In this document: positions 36,409 through 50,198 of the stretch, one piece after another
How the letters are laid out: each line of letters starts with the position of its first letter
Numbering within the stretch: the first letter of the stretch is position 1
Assembly (NCBI GenBank): GCA_022571985.1
Contig: JACZWU010000007.1
Location: 151,986 to 215,985, forward strand
Origin: Candidatus Zixiibacteriota bacterium
GTDB lineage: Bacteria > Zixibacteria > MSB-5A5 > GN15 > FEB-12
Reading direction: 5' to 3'
DNA length: 64,000 nt
Translations under genes and position numbers: made by a program
Notes under the pieces: generated by a model
Database searches by the model: none
What the model was told of the DNA's origin: nothing
The model's input: the letters and a program-made list of their open reading frames with translations, nothing else

Positions 36409-37317
36409 ATGAAAAAGAAACTCATTCTTTGCGTAGTTCTTGCCCTGGTACTTCAAACTACGACTTCAAAGGCTCAAGATTCAGGCGCTCCCGACAGTCT
36501 GAAAATGGTATTTATCATACCCCCCGTTACAGGGACAAATGTACCAGTGGTGGTCGAATGCTCTGTATTTGTAGATGCAGATACGCTCGCAGCACTTCAA
36601 TTTGGCTGGCAATGGGACAACCTGTCTTTGCAGATGGATAGCGCAAAAGCGTCGGCTGAATTCGATGCAATGAATATTGGCCCATTCTTTTTTCTTGGTA
36701 ATAGTTTAGCTACTACAAACGACAGTCAAGTTGCCATTGCCGCCGGCGTTTGTCTTTTTACTTGCTATACCCCTGCCGCAAGCTGGAGAAGGCTGGCTAC
36801 TTATTATATGACGATGGGCAGCTGGGATGCCAGCAGTACACTCTTGATCGACACCGTCCAGTTGTTGCCTCCATTTCATGCGACCGAATACTTATTCTAT
36901 CCTTTGGTGGGGGGTGTGAGTGGTCAACCGTATCAGCCAATCTGGGGTGGCCCAATAGGAGCTGGTTGTACTCCTGGAATTGATTCCGACAATGATGGTA
37001 TTGATGACTGCACAGACAACTGTCCGAACGACTTTAATCCTACTCAAGCAGACGCTGACAGCAATGGTGTTGGCGATGCTTGTTGTTGCATAGGCACCAG
37101 AGGTGATCTGAACGAAGATGGCGATGAAGCAAATATGTCAGATTTGACATATTTGGTGGACTTCATATTCAGAGGCAGTGGCGATCCTGGAGGATGCCCA
37201 AATGAGAGTGACGTCAACGGGGATGGTAATCAAGCAGATATTCTGGATTTGACATTTCTCGTCGACTTCATATTTAGAGACGGAGTACCTCCAGGACCTT
37301 GTTATGTGCCGAGTTAA
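36409..37317 (+). CDS. Secreted protein with TSP3-like and dockerin repeats
   Basis: A 302-residue protein with a signal peptide (about 1-22). An N-terminal domain (about 23-190) is closely related to the first domain of the large protein at 57341: both start GAPDS-KMVFI and share MTMGSW and IWGGP. A thrombospondin type 3-like calcium segment (DSDNDGIDDCTDNCPND) follows, then two dockerin-like loops (LNEDGDEANMSDLTYLVDF and DVNGDGNQADILDLTFLVDF). It is likely surface-bound or secreted. It lacks the C-terminal sorting module of its paralogue. Confidence 0.8.
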   Translation: MKKKLILCVVLALVLQTTTSKAQDSGAPDSLKMVFIIPPVTGTNVPVVVECSVFVDADTLAALQFGWQWDNLSLQMDSAKASAEFDAMNIGPFFFLGNSLATTNDSQVAIAAGVCLFTCYTPAASWRRLATYYMTMGSWDASSTLLIDTVQLLPPFHATEYLFYPLVGGVSGQPYQPIWGGPIGAGCTPGIDSDNDGIDDCTDNCPNDFNPTQADADSNGVGDACCCIGTRGDLNEDGDEANMSDLTYLVDFIFRGSGDPGGCPNESDVNGDGNQADILDLTFLVDFIFRDGVPPGPCYVPS

Positions 37318-39451: not shown

Positions 39452-40327
39452 TTAAAACGTTAGCCGGATCGAAAACAACTGCTTGACCTGCTGGGGAGTT
39501 GTGTAAGATAGTGGCGGAAAGTCAAAATCATTGAACGAATAGAACAGCTCAGCCATCAGGATTCCGGCTGCTGCACCAACAATTATGTCGGTCGGGAAAT
39601 GCTTGTAAGCATGTATTCTGGTCCAGCCGACAAAAGTCGCCCAGCTGAAAGCAGTGGCAGGTGAGACCCAGCTGTATTTATTGTATTTCCCGGGGGTCAT
39701 TTCATTTCTCATGATTGCGCGGATTCTCTTGTTTAAAAAAGTCATCGCGAAAAAAGCGCTTGAGGCGTGACCCGAAAAGAAAGAATTATGGTCGTAGGCA
39801 TGGTCGATATTGGTTCTCAGACCGGCCAGCTCCGGTTCAAGGCAGGGCAGCGGCCTCGGACGGGCGACTATGCCTTTGGTCAGGTCGGTTATTCCTTTAG
39901 TGGCAAGCAGTCCGGCGCCATAAAGAAAGAGATTCTGTGCAACGAGTTGACCTCTTTCTCTATCTCCGGACATCGGCCATTTTAAGTCTGCAGAAAGCAT
40001 AATCAGCGCTGCCGATACGGGTGTTACAGCCGAGCCTAATTCGCTATCCAAGAAATTTGTCTTGTCGATGCTGCAGTCTCCTCCCAGAAAGCGCTGAAGT
40101 TTCCGATCGAACAATATAGGGCCGCCTATCAGCGGAGTTTTGCTGCTGTCTAAATTTTTAACGTGATGACCAAGCACGAAAATACCAATCGTGCTGGCTG
40201 TAATAATACCGGCATCTTCGGCTGAGAGAAATCCACCTGCCTGTGACAGAGCAGGCAGACCAAGACAGAAGCATAATATAGCAGCGAGTTTTCTAATGGG
40301 CATGCTCGTAAATTTATAGCTTATCAT
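39452..40327 (-). CDS. PAP2 superfamily membrane phosphatase
   Basis: A 291-residue protein with a hydrophobic N-terminus and the PAP2 motifs in order: KGIVARPRP, FFSGHASSAFF, and WTRIHAYKHFPTDIIVGA. Members dephosphorylate phosphatidic acid, undecaprenyl pyrophosphate or similar lipids at the membrane. The start at 40327 is uncertain because neither it nor Met9 (40303) has a good ribosome site. It lies downstream of a group of envelope genes (40364-44780), suggesting a shared role in envelope lipids. Confidence 0.88.
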   Translation of the reverse strand: MISYKFTSMPIRKLAAILCFCLGLPALSQAGGFLSAEDAGIITASTIGIFVLGHHVKNLDSSKTPLIGGPILFDRKLQRFLGGDCSIDKTNFLDSELGSAVTPVSAALIMLSADLKWPMSGDRERGQLVAQNLFLYGAGLLATKGITDLTKGIVARPRPLPCLEPELAGLRTNIDHAYDHNSFFSGHASSAFFAMTFLNKRIRAIMRNEMTPGKYNKYSWVSPATAFSWATFVGWTRIHAYKHFPTDIIVGAAAGILMAELFYSFNDFDFPPLSYTTPQQVKQLFSIRLTF

Positions 40328-40363: not shown

Positions 40364-41716
40364 CTATAGTTTTCTTAAAAGCAGATCCTGGTAGTTTATT
40401 TCAAGGTAGTCCAGGGCACGGAAAAAATGCCCGATTGTCATAAAGTATTCGTTTGAGCGCTCTGCCACGTCTTCGCGTATAGTCGCGGTAATGTTGGAAT
40501 AAAAATAATGCCCGGATTGAGTGTTTACTTCGACTATTTTGGGTTCGCCATCGTTTTCGATAAAAAACGCTCCGGCGGTTAAAATTGGTTCTCCGACAAA
40601 CAGAAAGGCATGATTGGCCCGGGCCGGCTTTTGACCGGTTTCAGCTTCAATGCGCTTTACTTCTTCTCTTAAAAGCTCACGGCCGAAGCGGATTTTGCCG
40701 GACATGCCGACCGCAAAGAAATATTCAGCTGTTTTTAGTGTATCAAACACTTCTTTGGTCAAGGTTCGCATATAGCTCATCTGGCCGCCGCGCTTGATGA
40801 ACTTTCTGAATTCTTGCTGCAAAAGCTGATATTCTTTGTTGGGGTAAGCAATGTCCGGCGCTTCGGATTTGAGTCTTTCCAGACCCGACTCAGTCGGCAC
40901 AAATGCCAAAATCTCGGACAGCTTTGAAGTTACTATTTCAGCGTGAGATTTGAGATAATCTTTATAGTTTTGATAGCCCTGTATTACATAATCAGGTGGC
41001 GCGGCGTAGAAATCGAAACTTTCTTCTAAGCCAAAATCGACAGCTTTCGGTTCGGGAGCGTCAAGATTGCCTTTGTCGATTTCATAAAGATATCCGGAAA
41101 CTGCGTTTGCATAATCTCTTAGTTTGTCCCGCCAAGATTCATCTTCATTCTTGATTAGTGTGCGTTTAGCCCAGAATAGCCAGCGAAACTGATTAATGGT
41201 TTGGAATAGAACATTGTATCTGTTATTATTAATTTGTAAGACAATAATTCGTCCATCATAAAATCTTACTGAAGGGCTCCTGTCATGCTTATCAAGTGGA
41301 AGACTTCCAAACCCGATTTCTCTTTTTTCCAATCTTTCAGCAAGACTTCTATTATCATGAAAAGGAGGATTTCCAATCCCTATTTCTATTTCACCTCCAA
41401 GAAATGAATGGTCAACTCTGGCAATTATTTCTTCAACGTCTTTTAAGAGCTGGAGATTAGGGCATATTACTCTAACACTTTCGAAAATCTGTTTTGGCAA
41501 ATGCTGCTTGCTTGGGTCTAACGGACCCATAACTATAAAACCATCTTCTTCGGGGAAAATTTCTCTTAGAGTGTTTTGAAGCTCAACATTCTGCAGTTCA
41601 ACATATTTTTGAAACGACTCTCCTGTGATCGGGTCTTTAGGACCGGCCAGTAGTGATGCACTAACCAACAGCCATAAAACAATCAGCGTCGCCAGAGTTT
41701 TATTAAGTCTAAACAT
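40364..41716 (-). CDS. Secreted protein of unknown function
   Basis: A 450-residue protein with a signal peptide (about 1-24, ending LLAG) and no membrane segment or family I recognise. It is mixed alpha/beta, rich in charged residues, with motifs such as HDRSPSVRFYDGRIIVLQIN and RANHAFLFVGEPILTAGAFF. AAGGA precedes ATG 41716. It lies 14 bases after the kinase-like lipoprotein gene, so the two are probably one transcription unit with the Omp85 gene. Confidence 0.7.
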   Translation of the reverse strand: MFRLNKTLATLIVLWLLVSASLLAGPKDPITGESFQKYVELQNVELQNTLREIFPEEDGFIVMGPLDPSKQHLPKQIFESVRVICPNLQLLKDVEEIIARVDHSFLGGEIEIGIGNPPFHDNRSLAERLEKREIGFGSLPLDKHDRSPSVRFYDGRIIVLQINNNRYNVLFQTINQFRWLFWAKRTLIKNEDESWRDKLRDYANAVSGYLYEIDKGNLDAPEPKAVDFGLEESFDFYAAPPDYVIQGYQNYKDYLKSHAEIVTSKLSEILAFVPTESGLERLKSEAPDIAYPNKEYQLLQQEFRKFIKRGGQMSYMRTLTKEVFDTLKTAEYFFAVGMSGKIRFGRELLREEVKRIEAETGQKPARANHAFLFVGEPILTAGAFFIENDGEPKIVEVNTQSGHYFYSNITATIREDVAERSNEYFMTIGHFFRALDYLEINYQDLLLRKL

Positions 41717-41730
41717 ATAGTCCTTGTGTT

Positions 41731-43467
41731 TTAGCTGCGGTGCTCAATGCCAACTAACTGAAAGCTGTTTTTATCAGGATGGTACCAGAGCCACAGCGCA
41801 GTATCTTTACTCCAGTAAGAATCACCGCGCTTAGTCGAAATTAAAATTTCGTAAAGATGGCTGCCGGAGTTCTCGACTTTTGGAGCACGGTAACTTTCGA
41901 TCAGCGTTTTGACATCTTCAGCAGATATGACAAACTGACTGCCGCCGAATTCTGCCGACTCAAGTTTCTGCAAGCGCTGGTATTTGACCGAATATTTATA
42001 CTGCGTCTCATCTTCAAGTTCAAAGCCGTGCCTGACTGACAGGTCTGTGAAATTAATGGAAATCGAACCGTCGCTGTTAGCAAAATCAAATTCGTCCAGC
42101 GGGTTTACTTTACTAAACCAATGACGGCCAATCTTCTGCTGACGCTCAAGTAGTGTCTTAAGCAGATACTTCTCTGCCTGAGCATCAGAATACTTGCCGG
42201 CTCTTACCAGAGCTCTTAAGTCTTCTTCGTCAAACGACATGACAATCTTTGCAGCCCAGAAAGCATCGGCATAGGTCATTTCTTCAAAGGCCGGATTGGG
42301 AAGAATCGGGTCGAATTTATTTGCCTGAAAAATCTGAGACTCAAAATAACCAATAGAGCGATGTTCAACCTCGCCACCTTTTTCCCATGACCATGTTTTC
42401 AGCCCCAGCGTCAGAGTGGAGACCAGCATATCTCGCAGGTCAACAAAGTTGGCGTAGCCTTTGATAGCCGGCTTGGGACCGTCGCCATCGGCGCCAAAAG
42501 TCGAGCCAAAATCTATCAGATAATGTTTCAGGAAATGCCGGCCGTCTTCCTCAATATAAGCATCAAGCGTATTCTGGTCTTTGGTGTCATAGTGATTTAC
42601 AAGCGACGCAAAAACATAGAGTGCCCGAAGTTCCCGCCGGTTCTCATGGCTGCACCAGTCGTTGGGGTCATCACGACGTTTGCCTGAGTAACTGAAAGAA
42701 CCTTTGATTTTTCCTTTTATAATTTTTGAGGCGAGCGAGCGGATGGTGCCATTTTCTTCTTTTTCCACATCGCTTAAAATTTTATCAAGATCAGCCCGGG
42801 TAAATTCCCGTTTGACTCCTTTTTCTTTTATTCTTGCGCCCGGCTTAATTTTTAGTTTCTCCGGACGCCAGTAGACAATTGTTTCTTCGGGAACGTTATA
42901 GCCGCAGGCGTGAAAATATCGCGAGGCCATGGCAGCTGCGGCAGTTGACATTTCAGGGTAGCCTTTAGGGTCAAATTTTATAATATACTGGTCACCTCTG
43001 GAATCTTCTATCCAGAACCCCGGTGTGGCACCGCCGACTTTTGGGCGAAATACTTCCCAGGCTCCTGACGTATCAGGGCCGTCACCAATTACCGGGCCTT
43101 GAAAAATTTCCTCAGGTGAAAGTTCAAACAGCCCGTGCCGGTTGGTAAACCAGGTGGAGTTCGGAACTTCGTCGAAACTGTTGATGTTATGCGACTCTAT
43201 TCTGTTTGATGATAAAATCCTGAAATTCCTCTCGACATTGATGCCCTGTCTTACCTGATCAAAGGCAGAGCGCTTAATCGAGGTCCAGGCCAGGCCGGGG
43301 TCGCGTCCTTCCGGTTCGGGGATATCTTTGCGGTCGGCGTCTTTCCAGTAGGGCATATCGGGCGTGATAGTTCGTCTGGCGGCACAGCCGGATAGTAGCG
43401 ACAACAGCAAAAGCAAAAGTCCTGTTACAATTATCAGCCGGCTGAATTTATCTCTCTTTTTCATCAT
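41731..43467 (-). CDS. Lipoprotein with protein-kinase-like motifs
   Basis: A 578-residue protein with a lipobox (LLSGC, Cys28). A conserved core shows a Lys-containing strand DQYIIKFDPKGYPE (K164), then HYDTKDQN at residues 292-299, matching the HxDxKxxN catalytic loop of kinases. LIDFGSTFG follows with D319-F-G. The order and spacing (K, D294, D319) resemble HipA, Fam20 or PI3K-like atypical kinases. No such activity is shown, and a lipid-anchored secreted kinase in bacteria is unusual. It is co-directional with an Omp85 protein (43476) and an unknown secreted protein. Alternative: a fold relative that binds another nucleotide or none. Confidence 0.75.
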   Translation of the reverse strand: MMKKRDKFSRLIIVTGLLLLLLSLLSGCAARRTITPDMPYWKDADRKDIPEPEGRDPGLAWTSIKRSAFDQVRQGINVERNFRILSSNRIESHNINSFDEVPNSTWFTNRHGLFELSPEEIFQGPVIGDGPDTSGAWEVFRPKVGGATPGFWIEDSRGDQYIIKFDPKGYPEMSTAAAAMASRYFHACGYNVPEETIVYWRPEKLKIKPGARIKEKGVKREFTRADLDKILSDVEKEENGTIRSLASKIIKGKIKGSFSYSGKRRDDPNDWCSHENRRELRALYVFASLVNHYDTKDQNTLDAYIEEDGRHFLKHYLIDFGSTFGADGDGPKPAIKGYANFVDLRDMLVSTLTLGLKTWSWEKGGEVEHRSIGYFESQIFQANKFDPILPNPAFEEMTYADAFWAAKIVMSFDEEDLRALVRAGKYSDAQAEKYLLKTLLERQQKIGRHWFSKVNPLDEFDFANSDGSISINFTDLSVRHGFELEDETQYKYSVKYQRLQKLESAEFGGSQFVISAEDVKTLIESYRAPKVENSGSHLYEILISTKRGDSYWSKDTALWLWYHPDKNSFQLVGIEHRS

Positions 43468-43475
43468 ATTTCCCT

Positions 43476-44780
43476 TTAGAAAGAATCGCTGAATTGAATT
43501 CTGAATCTGGTTTCTTCTTCACTTTTGGCCGCATAAAAACTCAAAATCAGATTATCAGTTTCCCAGGCTCTGAGCCCGCCACCGTATGAGTATTTCCAGT
43601 CGTGCCATTTGAATTGGTCTGTTAAGCTTTTGAAGACCCTGGCTTCATCGAGAAAAACAAAAGCATCAATCTTTTTCCAGATGGGGTATCTGTATTCGGC
43701 TGAAATCAGGGCCAGGTCGTTATCAACAAAGCGGAGCCTGGTATAACCCCGCAGAGTTTCGGCACCACCTAACGAAGGCTTTAAGTAAAACGGCATAGAC
43801 GATGTTTCATTGACAAGGTCAGTAGTTTGCGCCATTAGTCGAAGCGCCAGGGTACGTTTTCTGAAAATGTGAAAATACTGGCGGACATCCACCGTTACAG
43901 AAGTGTACTTAAAATTGTCGTTGTCTTCGGTGCTGGCATAGTAGAACAGAGAGATTATTTCTCTGCCGCCTGAAGTGGGCTGTCCTTTGTCATTGCGCCA
44001 GTCGTGGTCGATGGTGCCTCCGACAGATACAAGCCTGGTGCTGCGTGTTTCAGAAAAGCTTAATTTATGTATCTGCCTGATCGAATCGATATCACCAACA
44101 AGATTGGGGTCTTCGCCGTCGAAAATATTGTAGGCATCGTAGCCAACTCTAAAGTCTACCACCACCTTCGAACGTGCCTGCCACAGGAAACTTGAAGACA
44201 GCTGCGAATGTTCGGGATTAAAATTAGTCTCATTCTTTCTCAAGCTCAAATGACCGCTGCCAAAATACCTCTCCTGTGGTCGCTGGGTATATTGACCAAG
44301 CAATGTTATGCCTATCTTTTCACTCAAGAACTTTGGGGCTCTGTATCTGATTTTGAAACTCTGGTAATCGTTGACTGATAATGAAAATTTAATCTTAAAC
44401 CGTTCATCGACTGTAAATACATCTTTTGAAGTAAAAGCCAGGCCAAATTCTGCTCCCGAATTTCCTCCGGCGCCAAAGATTGGGTAGAAGCCCCAAACTC
44501 TGTCAAGTTCACCGGTTAAGGCCGCGATCTGGGCAGCCAGATGCCCGGCGTAGAGATCATCAATGACTACCTGTGAAATGCCTGTTAATATGTCGACCGG
44601 TACGTTAATTACAAACTGGGGAATAGTCCAGAGCGCCTGTCCGAAGCCCTTTTTTTCCGGGTAGGGCTCTCTCTCTTTGGTGGTATCAGGCGGCTCCGAT
44701 GCCAATGCGTTCGCGCTCGAAATTAGCAGCAACGCTAACACAAGCATCATTCTTGAAAGCAGATTTATACTTTTTAACAT
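43476..44780 (-). CDS. Omp85/BamA-family outer membrane protein
   Basis: A 434-residue protein with a signal peptide (about 1-27). Its C-terminal beta-barrel contains the family element GGAETLRGYTRLRF and ends FRIQFSDSF with a terminal aromatic residue, as in barrels folded by BAM. POTRA domains are not evident, so it resembles the short D15/surface antigen type rather than BamA itself. It is nine bases upstream of the kinase-like lipoprotein gene and probably its partner at the outer membrane. Its first five codons are duplicated at 54786-54800 beside the tRNA-Arg repeat. Confidence 0.85.
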   Translation of the reverse strand: MLKSINLLSRMMLVLALLLISSANALASEPPDTTKEREPYPEKKGFGQALWTIPQFVINVPVDILTGISQVVIDDLYAGHLAAQIAALTGELDRVWGFYPIFGAGGNSGAEFGLAFTSKDVFTVDERFKIKFSLSVNDYQSFKIRYRAPKFLSEKIGITLLGQYTQRPQERYFGSGHLSLRKNETNFNPEHSQLSSSFLWQARSKVVVDFRVGYDAYNIFDGEDPNLVGDIDSIRQIHKLSFSETRSTRLVSVGGTIDHDWRNDKGQPTSGGREIISLFYYASTEDNDNFKYTSVTVDVRQYFHIFRKRTLALRLMAQTTDLVNETSSMPFYLKPSLGGAETLRGYTRLRFVDNDLALISAEYRYPIWKKIDAFVFLDEARVFKSLTDQFKWHDWKYSYGGGLRAWETDNLILSFYAAKSEEETRFRIQFSDSF

Positions 44781-44967
44781 TAGCGGAATTTTCCTTTGTA
44801 ATGGGATTAGAACCTAAGCAATTATAAAGGCCTGGCAGGGGGATGTCAATTCGATTTTGGGCAGACTAAAAGGGAGCTTATACTCTCGAATTTTTCAAAA
44901 ATTGCTGTTCTTTGAATATTAAATACGCCCAGCAGGAGTCGAACCCGCAACCTTCTGATCCGTAGTC
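44770..44967 (+). repeat. Left flanking direct repeat of the island
   Basis: The last 50 bases (44918-44967) are identical to 54939-54988. Bases 44770-44880 also match 54800-54910 at roughly four in five positions. The stretch between is not alignable. It includes the start of the Omp85 gene and the tRNA-Arg 3' half. Confidence 0.85.
44924..44967 (-). other. 3' fragment of tRNA-Arg(ACG)
   Basis: The last 44 bases of tRNA-Arg, from the anticodon stem to the discriminator base, identical to the intact gene at 54945-55018. The 5' half is absent; the sequence changes abruptly after GTAGTC at 44967. This is the usual trace of integration at a tRNA 3' end. Confidence 0.85.
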
Positions 44968-47630: not shown

Positions 47631-50198
47631 ATGAGATTAGAATCTGACTCAATCGTAGGTCATTATAGAATCATAGAAGAGATTGCATCTGGTGGAATGG
47701 GCAAAGTATATCTTGCCGAAGACACTATCCTGTATAGAAAAGTAGCAATTAAAATACTTTCAAATGAGCTTGCACAAAACCAAGTATTTAAGAAACAATT
47801 TATGCTTGAAGCACAGGCCGCAGCAAGTGTTGATCATCCCAATATCGTAACAATATTTGATGTCTCTGAAATTGCAGGGAATCCATATATTGTGATGGAA
47901 TATGTTGATGGAAAATCAATTAAATCTCTAGTTGAAAGTAAAGAAATTTCCGTCCATGAAGCAACGGCAATTATCAGACAGATTTGTTCGGCCTTAAGAG
48001 AGACTCATATGGCAGGACTATTACATAGAGATATAAAATCTAATAATATATTGATTGATAAAAATAATAATGTAAAAGTTTTAGATTTTGGTCTGGCTAA
48101 GAAAACAGATACTATTGAACCTAATACTTTCTCAGCTTTTTCTGGAACTGTTCTCTTTATGTCACCAGAACAAATAAGAGGTGAAGAATTAACGGAAGCC
48201 TCAGATTTATTTTCTCTCGGTGTAATCAGTTATCAAATGCTTTCAGGAGAGTATCCATTTAAGGGAGATTATGAAGCAGCCATAAAATTCTCAATAGAAA
48301 ACGAAACCCCTAAAGATATTAGAGAATTTTCTCCTGAAATTGATGAAAAACTCGCAGATGTTATTATGAAGATGTTGGAGAAAGAAATTTCAAACAGATA
48401 TAGCTCTGCAAATGACGTAATCTGCGACCTTGAATCAGTTTCTGCTTCGCATAAGAATATTTGGTCGATGAATATTGGCAATAAAGCTGCTTTTTTCTTT
48501 GGCACAATCGTGATAGCTATATTTTTTACGTACTTGTATCATGTAATGTGGGGTAGTCAAAGTGAAAATGAATTTGGCACTCAGGAGATTATGCTGGCAG
48601 TTTTACCATTCGAAAATCTGGGGACTCCAAATGATGAGTATTTTTCTGACGGTATTACTGATGCACTAACACACGGTCTTGCCAAATTGAAGAATATAGG
48701 TGTAATATCTCGGCAGAGTGCCTCAAAATATAAAGGGAGTGAGCTTGGTCTCAAAGAAATTGGAAACCAGCTTGGAGTAGATTATATTTTGTCTGGAACA
48801 ATTCACTGGGACAAAACAAAAAATGATTCTGTAAGAATATACACTTCACTTATTCATGTTACAAACGACAAATATATTTGGTCAGATTCTTATGACGGGA
48901 GATTGTCTCAACTTTTTGGATTACAGACAACAATTTTGGAAAAAGTTGCTTATGCTCTAAAAATTATTTATTCAGAATCGGACCTTGTTGTTCTAAAAGA
49001 GATACCAACTTCCAATCTAAACGCTTATGATTTTTACCTAAAAGGAAATCAATTATTTAACCGTAGCTGGAAGAAGAGTGATATCGAAATGGCATTGCTA
49101 ATGTACAACAACGCAATAGCACTAGATTCAGGATTTGCATCTGCTTATGCCATGGCTTCCAGGTGTTATTCAAGTCTTTACTGGGAGTATTATGAACACT
49201 CACTGGAAAACTGCAATTTATCAAAAAGCTTTGCTAATAAAGCTCTATCGCTAAATAATAATTTTGCGGTAGGCTACCTTGCAAAGGGCTACTGTTTCTA
49301 TCATTGTGAACAAAATCTTGATAAGGCACTGCAACTATTCAATGAGGGATTAACATTCAGTAATAATAACGGGGATTTACATAATGCAGTTGCAGCAGTT
49401 CAACGAAGACAGGGGAAATTCGTAGAATCAAATATCAGTTTTAAGCGCTCTTTAAAATTGGACCCTAGATCACATTTGAAAGCTCTGGATATTGGATTCA
49501 CATCAGCCATACTGCATCAATATGATAGTGCTGATTTTTATGCAAAGAAGTCTATTGGGTTAAATAAAGATTATTCTCTTGCACATATTTTCAAAGCGTG
49601 GCTTCCTATTCTGAGTCAAAGTGACATTCAAGAAGCTGAAAATCTATTGGAGCAATCGCTGAAGCAAACAGACTTGACATCATCGAAATATTACTGGTGG
49701 CTGTTGAGAATAATTGGTGACCAAACAAAATTAAATTTCACTCAAATAACCCCGGGAACAGATTCTATTGCTTATTATTTGTTTATGGCTCAGAGAAACA
49801 GGCTCAAAGAAAACAGTTCTGATGAAAAATTATATGCAGATTCTGCTTTGCAAATCCTTAAGAAGAAACTGGCTGATTTTCCAGATGATGCAAGATACAA
49901 TAGCTCAATTGGTTTAGCATACGCGAGTCTGGGTGAGCAAGAGAAAAGTTTGGAATTTGGTGAAAAGGCCTTGGAGCTAATATCAAAATCTAAAGACGCG
50001 TTTGATGCGCCATTTTTGGCAATGAATTGTGCAGAGATTTTTATTATTCTGAAAGATTATGACTCAGCAATTGAGATATTGAAATACCTTGTATCAAACC
50101 CAGGACTTGTTTCGAAATCATATATTCAGATAGATCCTCTATGGAAATCACTTCTTGAGAATGAGTCGTTCAATGAATTTTTGGTGCAAGACCAGTGA
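47631..50198 (+). CDS. Ser/Thr protein kinase with FlgO-like and TPR domains
   Basis: An 855-residue membrane protein. The kinase domain (about 12-270) has ASGGMGKVYLAE, K41, HRDIKSNN (132-139), DFG (152-154) and MSPEQ, so it looks active. A membrane helix lies at about 287-306. A FlgO-like domain (about 316-460: AVLPFENLGTPNDEYFSDGI, LGVDYILSGTI) and TPR repeats follow. Such proteins are receptor-like kinases whose external half may sense envelope state. It is co-located with the sigma-54 activator and desaturase; a signalling link is inferred. No sigma-54 site is seen upstream. Confidence 0.9.
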   Translation: MRLESDSIVGHYRIIEEIASGGMGKVYLAEDTILYRKVAIKILSNELAQNQVFKKQFMLEAQAAASVDHPNIVTIFDVSEIAGNPYIVMEYVDGKSIKSLVESKEISVHEATAIIRQICSALRETHMAGLLHRDIKSNNILIDKNNNVKVLDFGLAKKTDTIEPNTFSAFSGTVLFMSPEQIRGEELTEASDLFSLGVISYQMLSGEYPFKGDYEAAIKFSIENETPKDIREFSPEIDEKLADVIMKMLEKEISNRYSSANDVICDLESVSASHKNIWSMNIGNKAAFFFGTIVIAIFFTYLYHVMWGSQSENEFGTQEIMLAVLPFENLGTPNDEYFSDGITDALTHGLAKLKNIGVISRQSASKYKGSELGLKEIGNQLGVDYILSGTIHWDKTKNDSVRIYTSLIHVTNDKYIWSDSYDGRLSQLFGLQTTILEKVAYALKIIYSESDLVVLKEIPTSNLNAYDFYLKGNQLFNRSWKKSDIEMALLMYNNAIALDSGFASAYAMASRCYSSLYWEYYEHSLENCNLSKSFANKALSLNNNFAVGYLAKGYCFYHCEQNLDKALQLFNEGLTFSNNNGDLHNAVAAVQRRQGKFVESNISFKRSLKLDPRSHLKALDIGFTSAILHQYDSADFYAKKSIGLNKDYSLAHIFKAWLPILSQSDIQEAENLLEQSLKQTDLTSSKYYWWLLRIIGDQTKLNFTQITPGTDSIAYYLFMAQRNRLKENSSDEKLYADSALQILKKKLADFPDDARYNSSIGLAYASLGEQEKSLEFGEKALELISKSKDAFDAPFLAMNCAEIFIILKDYDSAIEILKYLVSNPGLVSKSYIQIDPLWKSLLENESFNEFLVQDQ

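Follow-up and report, generated by a model that had tools for sequence, protein, structure and literature searches.

The closest described counterparts of the protein analysed here are atypical kinases of three kinds. Fam20C, the Golgi casein kinase, belongs to an animal family that is exported from the cytoplasm, and secretory kinases of this type rely on an ATP supply to a compartment other than the cytoplasm. HipA-type kinases belong to toxin-antitoxin systems of the cytoplasm, and the CotH kinases of the spore coat are bacterial atypical kinases acting on extracytoplasmic structures. To our knowledge, the periplasm is generally held to lack ATP. The NTT carrier family includes known bacterial ATP carriers, and its known members exchange ATP and ADP across membranes. 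Major et al. (2017; PMC5381601) found NTT-HEAT proteins to be widespread in free-living bacteria and left their function open: no NTT-HEAT protein had been tested for transport, and an NTT from outside the main clade did not transport nucleotides. A search of the text of that paper found no mention of kinase, Omp85 or periplasm, and the description of the 'noNterm' Omp85 subfamily, in which the barrel has no POTRA domain, mentions no kinase partner (Heinz and Lithgow 2014; PMC4104836). We found no literature on an exported kinase associated with either Omp85 or NTT among published open-access papers.

Positions given below refer to the window, that is, the whole 64,000-nucleotide stretch analysed, rather than to the contig. 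The gene of interest lies on the minus strand (41731-43467, read from 43467 to 41731) and encodes a 578-residue exported lipoprotein with a predicted kinase fold, as indicated by the ORF call, its motifs, an AlphaFold2 model and Foldseek matches. The plus-strand frame over the same span is riddled with stops, and the gene is present in a single copy in its genome (G000, 2.93 Mb in 17 contigs). A previous reading from sequence only, which named no strand, had placed a lipobox and three kinase motifs in this protein. Translation of the minus-strand ORF bears out every one of these residues at its position: K164, the candidate beta-3 lysine (42976-42978), the catalytic loop H292-x-D294-x-K296-x-x-N299 (42571-42594) and the metal-binding motif D319-F-G (42505-42513), all on the minus strand. 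The span 42511-42978 thus runs from the first base of the K164 codon (42978) to the last base of the D319 codon (42511). The signal peptide (residues 1-28; 43384-43467, minus strand) ends in the lipobox LSG-C28, whose cysteine is kept in 29 of the 29 close relatives covering that position. The model and Foldseek delimit a kinase-like domain at residues 137-451 (42115-43059, minus strand), followed in the predicted secondary structure by a C-terminal beta-sandwich at residues 457-576 (41740-42099, minus strand). This second domain is predicted to resemble fibronectin-III and cytokine-receptor domains, the matches to the IL-7 receptor and to neogenin FN domains being assigned to it from length and strand content.

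Homologues occur in 35 of 146 related genomes, the closest in records titled Candidatus Zixiibacteriota, and a collection of genomes of prokaryote species yielded 251 stretches that encode relatives. We fetched 80 loci, mostly from metagenome-assembled draft genomes, with genes called mechanically as ORFs. By record title, with lineage names as deposited, they fall into about 19 lineages, including Zixibacteria, Calditrichota, KSB1, Latescibacterota, Poribacteria, Krumholzibacteriota, Marinimicrobia, Aminicenantes, Acidobacteriota, Gemmatimonadota, Nitrospira, Eisenbacteria, Omnitrophota and Oligoflexia. Four genomes from the phylum of the Calditrichia locus L054 (G147, G149, G159 and G222) carry three kinase paralogues each.

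Conservation was assessed on an alignment of 58 sequences from many phyla, with identities to the window protein down to about 35%. Ten positions are invariant in all 58 (K164, D294, N299, D319, F320, H315, R278, R281, D267 and D270). The invariance of the core motif residues across so many phyla argues that the kinase motifs are not a chance occurrence, and the residues named in advance are conserved in the family. Position 296 is a lysine in 46 homologues and an arginine in 12; H292 is retained in 52 of 58 and G321 in 50. All 58 also carry an export signal: 44 clear lipoboxes, three looser cysteine sites and 11 Sec-type signals, judged with a simple rule of hydrophobicity. Export is therefore a consistent trait of the family, as is the full set of catalytic residues.

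AlphaFold2, run on the 58-sequence alignment, returned a confident model (mean pLDDT 94.1, pTM 0.92). In it, K164 closes a strand and has a helix after it, a further helix precedes the HxDxKxxN loop, and DFG is reached through a beta hairpin; along the predicted secondary structure, the motif order is that of kinases. A Foldseek search of the PDB gave Golgi casein kinase/Fam20 as the best match (4kqa, 4kqb; E 5e-5, probability 1.0), followed by CtkA (3akj; E 3e-4, probability 1.0, TM-score 0.51 over the target; 0.49-0.52 for CtkA matches in general). Lower matches were to Rio2, HipT and DrFam20C1. Cytokine-receptor domains of the fibronectin-III type matched as well. The TM-scores over the target, about 0.3-0.5, are modest, and the extra domains are the probable cause. 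A fold unrelated to kinases would have undone the initial proposal; instead, an ordered lysine, catalytic-loop aspartate and asparagine, and DFG aspartate on a predicted kinase fold place the protein in the protein kinase-like (PKL) superfamily. On this model the fold class is secure and the exact nearest relative is not.

Is the protein then a member of the Fam20 or HipA families, as its first description, 'Fam20/HipA-like', might imply? The window protein has no match above cut-off in Pfam, NCBIfam or PDB sequences. HipA_2 and HipA_C are the sole kinase models in Pfam to appear at all, below cut-off, in 10 and 7 of the 58 members respectively (best E 0.004 and 0.03); none of the 58 reaches the curated cut-off of the HipA family (PF07804/PF20613), and the window protein shows not even a weak match. 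Comparing profiles with a single HipA of a related genome revealed no similarity, Fam20C in Pfam gave no match in the 58 members at E values up to 1, and CotH (PF08757) matched none of them. The phrase thus stands as a likeness of fold and fails as a statement of membership. Fam20C is the best fold match of the protein in the PDB, and the two share export from the cytoplasm and the order of lysine, catalytic aspartate, asparagine and metal-binding aspartate; the protein differs in being bacterial and lipid-anchored, in its FN3-like C-terminal domain, in its Omp85 partner and in lacking sequence similarity at the Pfam level. The likeness to CtkA, HipA and HipT lies in the structural match to CtkA and in the weak HipA signals. 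The conserved neighbours at the kinase loci are Omp85, phosphatases and NTT, and the operon maps showed no recognisable HipB-like partner. CotH genes stand separately in the genomes of some relatives, and Lani_1194 of Legionella, also considered, belongs to a different family.

In the window, the kinase gene is the second gene of a putative operon on the minus strand. The first gene (43476-44780) encodes a POTRA-less Omp85-superfamily barrel of 434 residues with an LRGY motif (PF01103, E 1.8e-16). It is followed after 8 bases by the kinase gene, after a further 14 by a gene for an exported 450-residue protein with no assigned family (40364-41716), and after 36 more by one for an exported PAP2-superfamily phosphatase of 291 residues (39452-40327; PF01569, E 3.3e-19). 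The three neighbours first proposed for the kinase, an Omp85 protein, a secreted unknown and a PAP2 phosphatase, are all real. A candidate promoter, TTGACA-17-TATAAT (44821-44849, minus strand), precedes the start codon of Omp85 by about 40 bases; it is the only 12/12 sigma-70 consensus match in the scanned stretch and a candidate by consensus match alone.

The survey of Omp85 partnership that had been suggested yielded a near-universal association. Upstream sequence of 600 bases or more was available for 71 loci, and in 69 of them an Omp85 gene lies directly upstream on the same strand, usually overlapping or no more than 60 bases away. In one locus (L110) it lies directly downstream of the kinase gene, and L095 is the only locus without an Omp85 gene nearby. 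The pair has even been duplicated in tandem as a unit (L101:3474-9621). Twenty-seven of 32 partner barrels match Omp85, and the membership is further indicated by the PF01103 barrel with its RG(Y/F) L6 motif, in which R344-G345 is nearly invariant. POTRA models matched none of the 32 barrels, which fits a POTRA-less subfamily; it is by this feature that we liken them to the noNterm Omp85 proteins. Among the relatives, strong matches over the full length of the partner barrel follow the genomes that carry the kinase, the exceptions without kinase being G029 and G064; we checked G029 and found an Omp85 relative with no kinase nearby, a real exception. This Omp85 relative (L147:6808-8334) adjoins a gene for a cytoplasmic Ser/Thr kinase-like protein, with no kinase of the family near.

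In seven loci (L052, L057, L061, L063, L072, L085 and L097), large genes of a sensor-kinase cluster occupy the place upstream of Omp85 or lie close to it, which hints at control by a two-component system; the identity of this cluster comes from one member checked against Pfam.

When neighbouring genes were clustered, one order kept recurring: Omp85, kinase, exported phosphatase, single-domain NTT, NTT-HEAT and a cNMP-binding protein, accompanied by nearby sensor kinase or response-regulator genes. The carriers pass the PF03219 (NTT/TLC) cut-off, with E values of 4.3e-26 for the single-domain gene L068:9029-10366, 1.4e-9 for its HEAT-fused neighbour and 2.2e-11 in the window's genome. The architecture, NTT and NTT-HEAT with an adjacent cNMP-binding gene in free-living bacteria, is the one described in PMC5381601. 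A single-domain NTT from one such operon matches in sequence the solved AtNTT1 and another ADP,ATP carrier of solved structure, and conserved charged positions are kept. Of the 37 loci flanked on each side by 5 kb or more, 21 have an NTT within 6 kb of the kinase gene, against about 0.9% expected by chance. The window's own genome has its NTT module on another contig, not beside the kinase. There, a PAS/histidine-kinase-like gene, NTT-HEAT, a cNMP-binding protein and a response regulator stand in a row (G000:C1, about 106477-112065; L149:1478-7066), and this module is the same one that neighbours the kinase in other genomes.

Across genomes the association is close. The kinase occurs in 35 of the 146 relatives and NTT likewise in 35, with 30 genomes carrying both (Fisher p 6.5e-21, uncorrected for shared ancestry); for the well-assembled relatives alone, the four counts are 20, 2, 2 and 66 (Fisher p 1e-15, likewise uncorrected). 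Three of the five kinase-bearing relatives in which no NTT appears are less than 90% complete. In other phyla, NTT accompanies the kinase in 45 of 47 kinase genomes, and pooling the sets, which partly overlap, gives about 79 of 86 distinct kinase genomes (about 92%). None of 14 control genomes has an NTT. In the phylum of L054, the same seven of 40 genomes carry both genes and 33 carry neither. In the phylum to which the Gemmatimonadota locus L091 belongs, the five kinase genomes all have NTT, and 38 of the 43 NTT genomes are without kinase. The rule is one-way: the kinase goes with NTT, and NTT does not need the kinase. The idea that the two are mutually exclusive partners was rejected, NTT being common without kinase in the Gemmatimonadota sample. 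One apparent NTT-only genome (G126) has a contig that ends inside the Omp85 gene, with the NTT module and PAP2 alongside, so that its lack of a kinase gene may be no more than a gap in the assembly.

An exported kinase with intact catalytic residues, in a compartment generally held to lack ATP, faces a fuel problem, to which the linked NTT offers a testable answer. We lean towards the view that the protein is an exported, lipid-anchored PKL phosphotransferase of a new family, partnered by Omp85 and fuelled by periplasmic ATP that NTT would supply. The kinase, made with its near-obligate POTRA-less barrel, would work in the periplasm or on the outer membrane. An NTT/TLC-type carrier of the inner membrane would exchange cytoplasmic ATP, moving out, for the ADP made by the kinase, moving in, and the kinase would spend the exported ATP on a target in the envelope. 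Co-encoded exported phosphatases (PAP2 in the window, metallophosphoesterase lipoproteins elsewhere) may reverse the phosphorylation or clear nucleotides, and the barrel would most likely be a docking partner, a substrate or an outlet for the kinase or its product. The combination of exported kinase, Omp85 and NTT suggests an undescribed system of ATP-driven phosphorylation outside the cytoplasm. Points that weigh against this view are the NTTs of genomes without the kinase, the separate placement of the NTT module in the window's genome, the five kinase-bearing relatives in which no NTT appears, the one NTT that did not transport nucleotides and the modest TM-scores. More tentatively, and with somewhat less assurance than for this view, we propose that diderms of many phyla have a dedicated phosphorylation apparatus outside the inner membrane, with ATP-exporting NTT, Omp85-paired kinase and reversing phosphatases, acting on envelope or surface targets.

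The NTT could also be linked to a genuine exported kinase for some other reason, such as nucleotide or NAD uptake or a role as a regulator fused to HEAT repeats, with cNMP-binding partners, the kinase drawing on another donor or on leaked or released ATP. NTTs found without kinase in many genomes must have other roles, NTT-HEAT has been reported in Cyanobacteria and Chlamydia (PMC5381601), and carrier direction is not predictable from sequence. We nevertheless consider this explanation unlikely, since the dependence of kinase on NTT is one-way in several phyla and the two are placed in the same operon.

The phosphatases invite a second alternative, an operon for outer-membrane lipid in which the kinase-like protein would phosphorylate, or only bind, a lipid or lipid-linked glycan, PAP2 or metallophosphoesterase would dephosphorylate it, and the NTT-like protein would move a lipid or phospho-compound. 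PAP2 occurs in 17 loci, too few for the universal partner we had considered it to be, and Metallophos, in the form of metallophosphoesterase lipoproteins, in 18. Lipid kinases are found among kinase-like folds, and one NTT relative failed to transport nucleotides (PMC5381601). The best fold matches, however, are protein kinases, and the operon NTT resembles solved ATP carriers in sequence, with its charged positions conserved, which makes the lipid operon distinctly improbable. The near-obligate pairing with the barrel would also suit a catalytically dead kinase fold serving as a structural or binding partner of Omp85, for instance an assembly lipoprotein, a reading that we regard as very doubtful because the core catalytic positions are invariant across phyla, unlike those of typical pseudokinases.

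If we return to the ATP-fuelled kinase, what is new is the system and not its parts, every one of which falls within a known superfamily. The kinase family itself is nameless in the libraries searched and, judged from its sequence, founds a new family. The NTT-HEAT carriers of free-living bacteria gain a candidate function, and the POTRA-less Omp85 barrel a defined partner. If true, the proposal would give bacteria a counterpart of the secretory-pathway kinases and make regulated phosphorylation of bacterial outer membranes an open field.

Other genes of the window deserve mention. The gene for the exported 450-residue protein adjoins the kinase gene in 10 Zixibacteria loci. The protein has no family match in searches of Pfam/NCBIfam-type libraries, its structure prediction is poor (pLDDT 60), and its profile is unrelated to that of the kinase. 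It carries an unusually conserved motif, RANHAFLFxGExxLTAGAFF...SGHYFYSN, whose SGHY part may resemble plant IQM proteins. On the plus strand, positions 47631-50198 encode an unrelated Ser/Thr protein kinase of the classical cytoplasmic type, with a repeat region at its C-terminus, and positions 36409-37317 a secreted protein ending in a pair of dockerin-like repeats (GDLNEDG... and SDVNGDG...).
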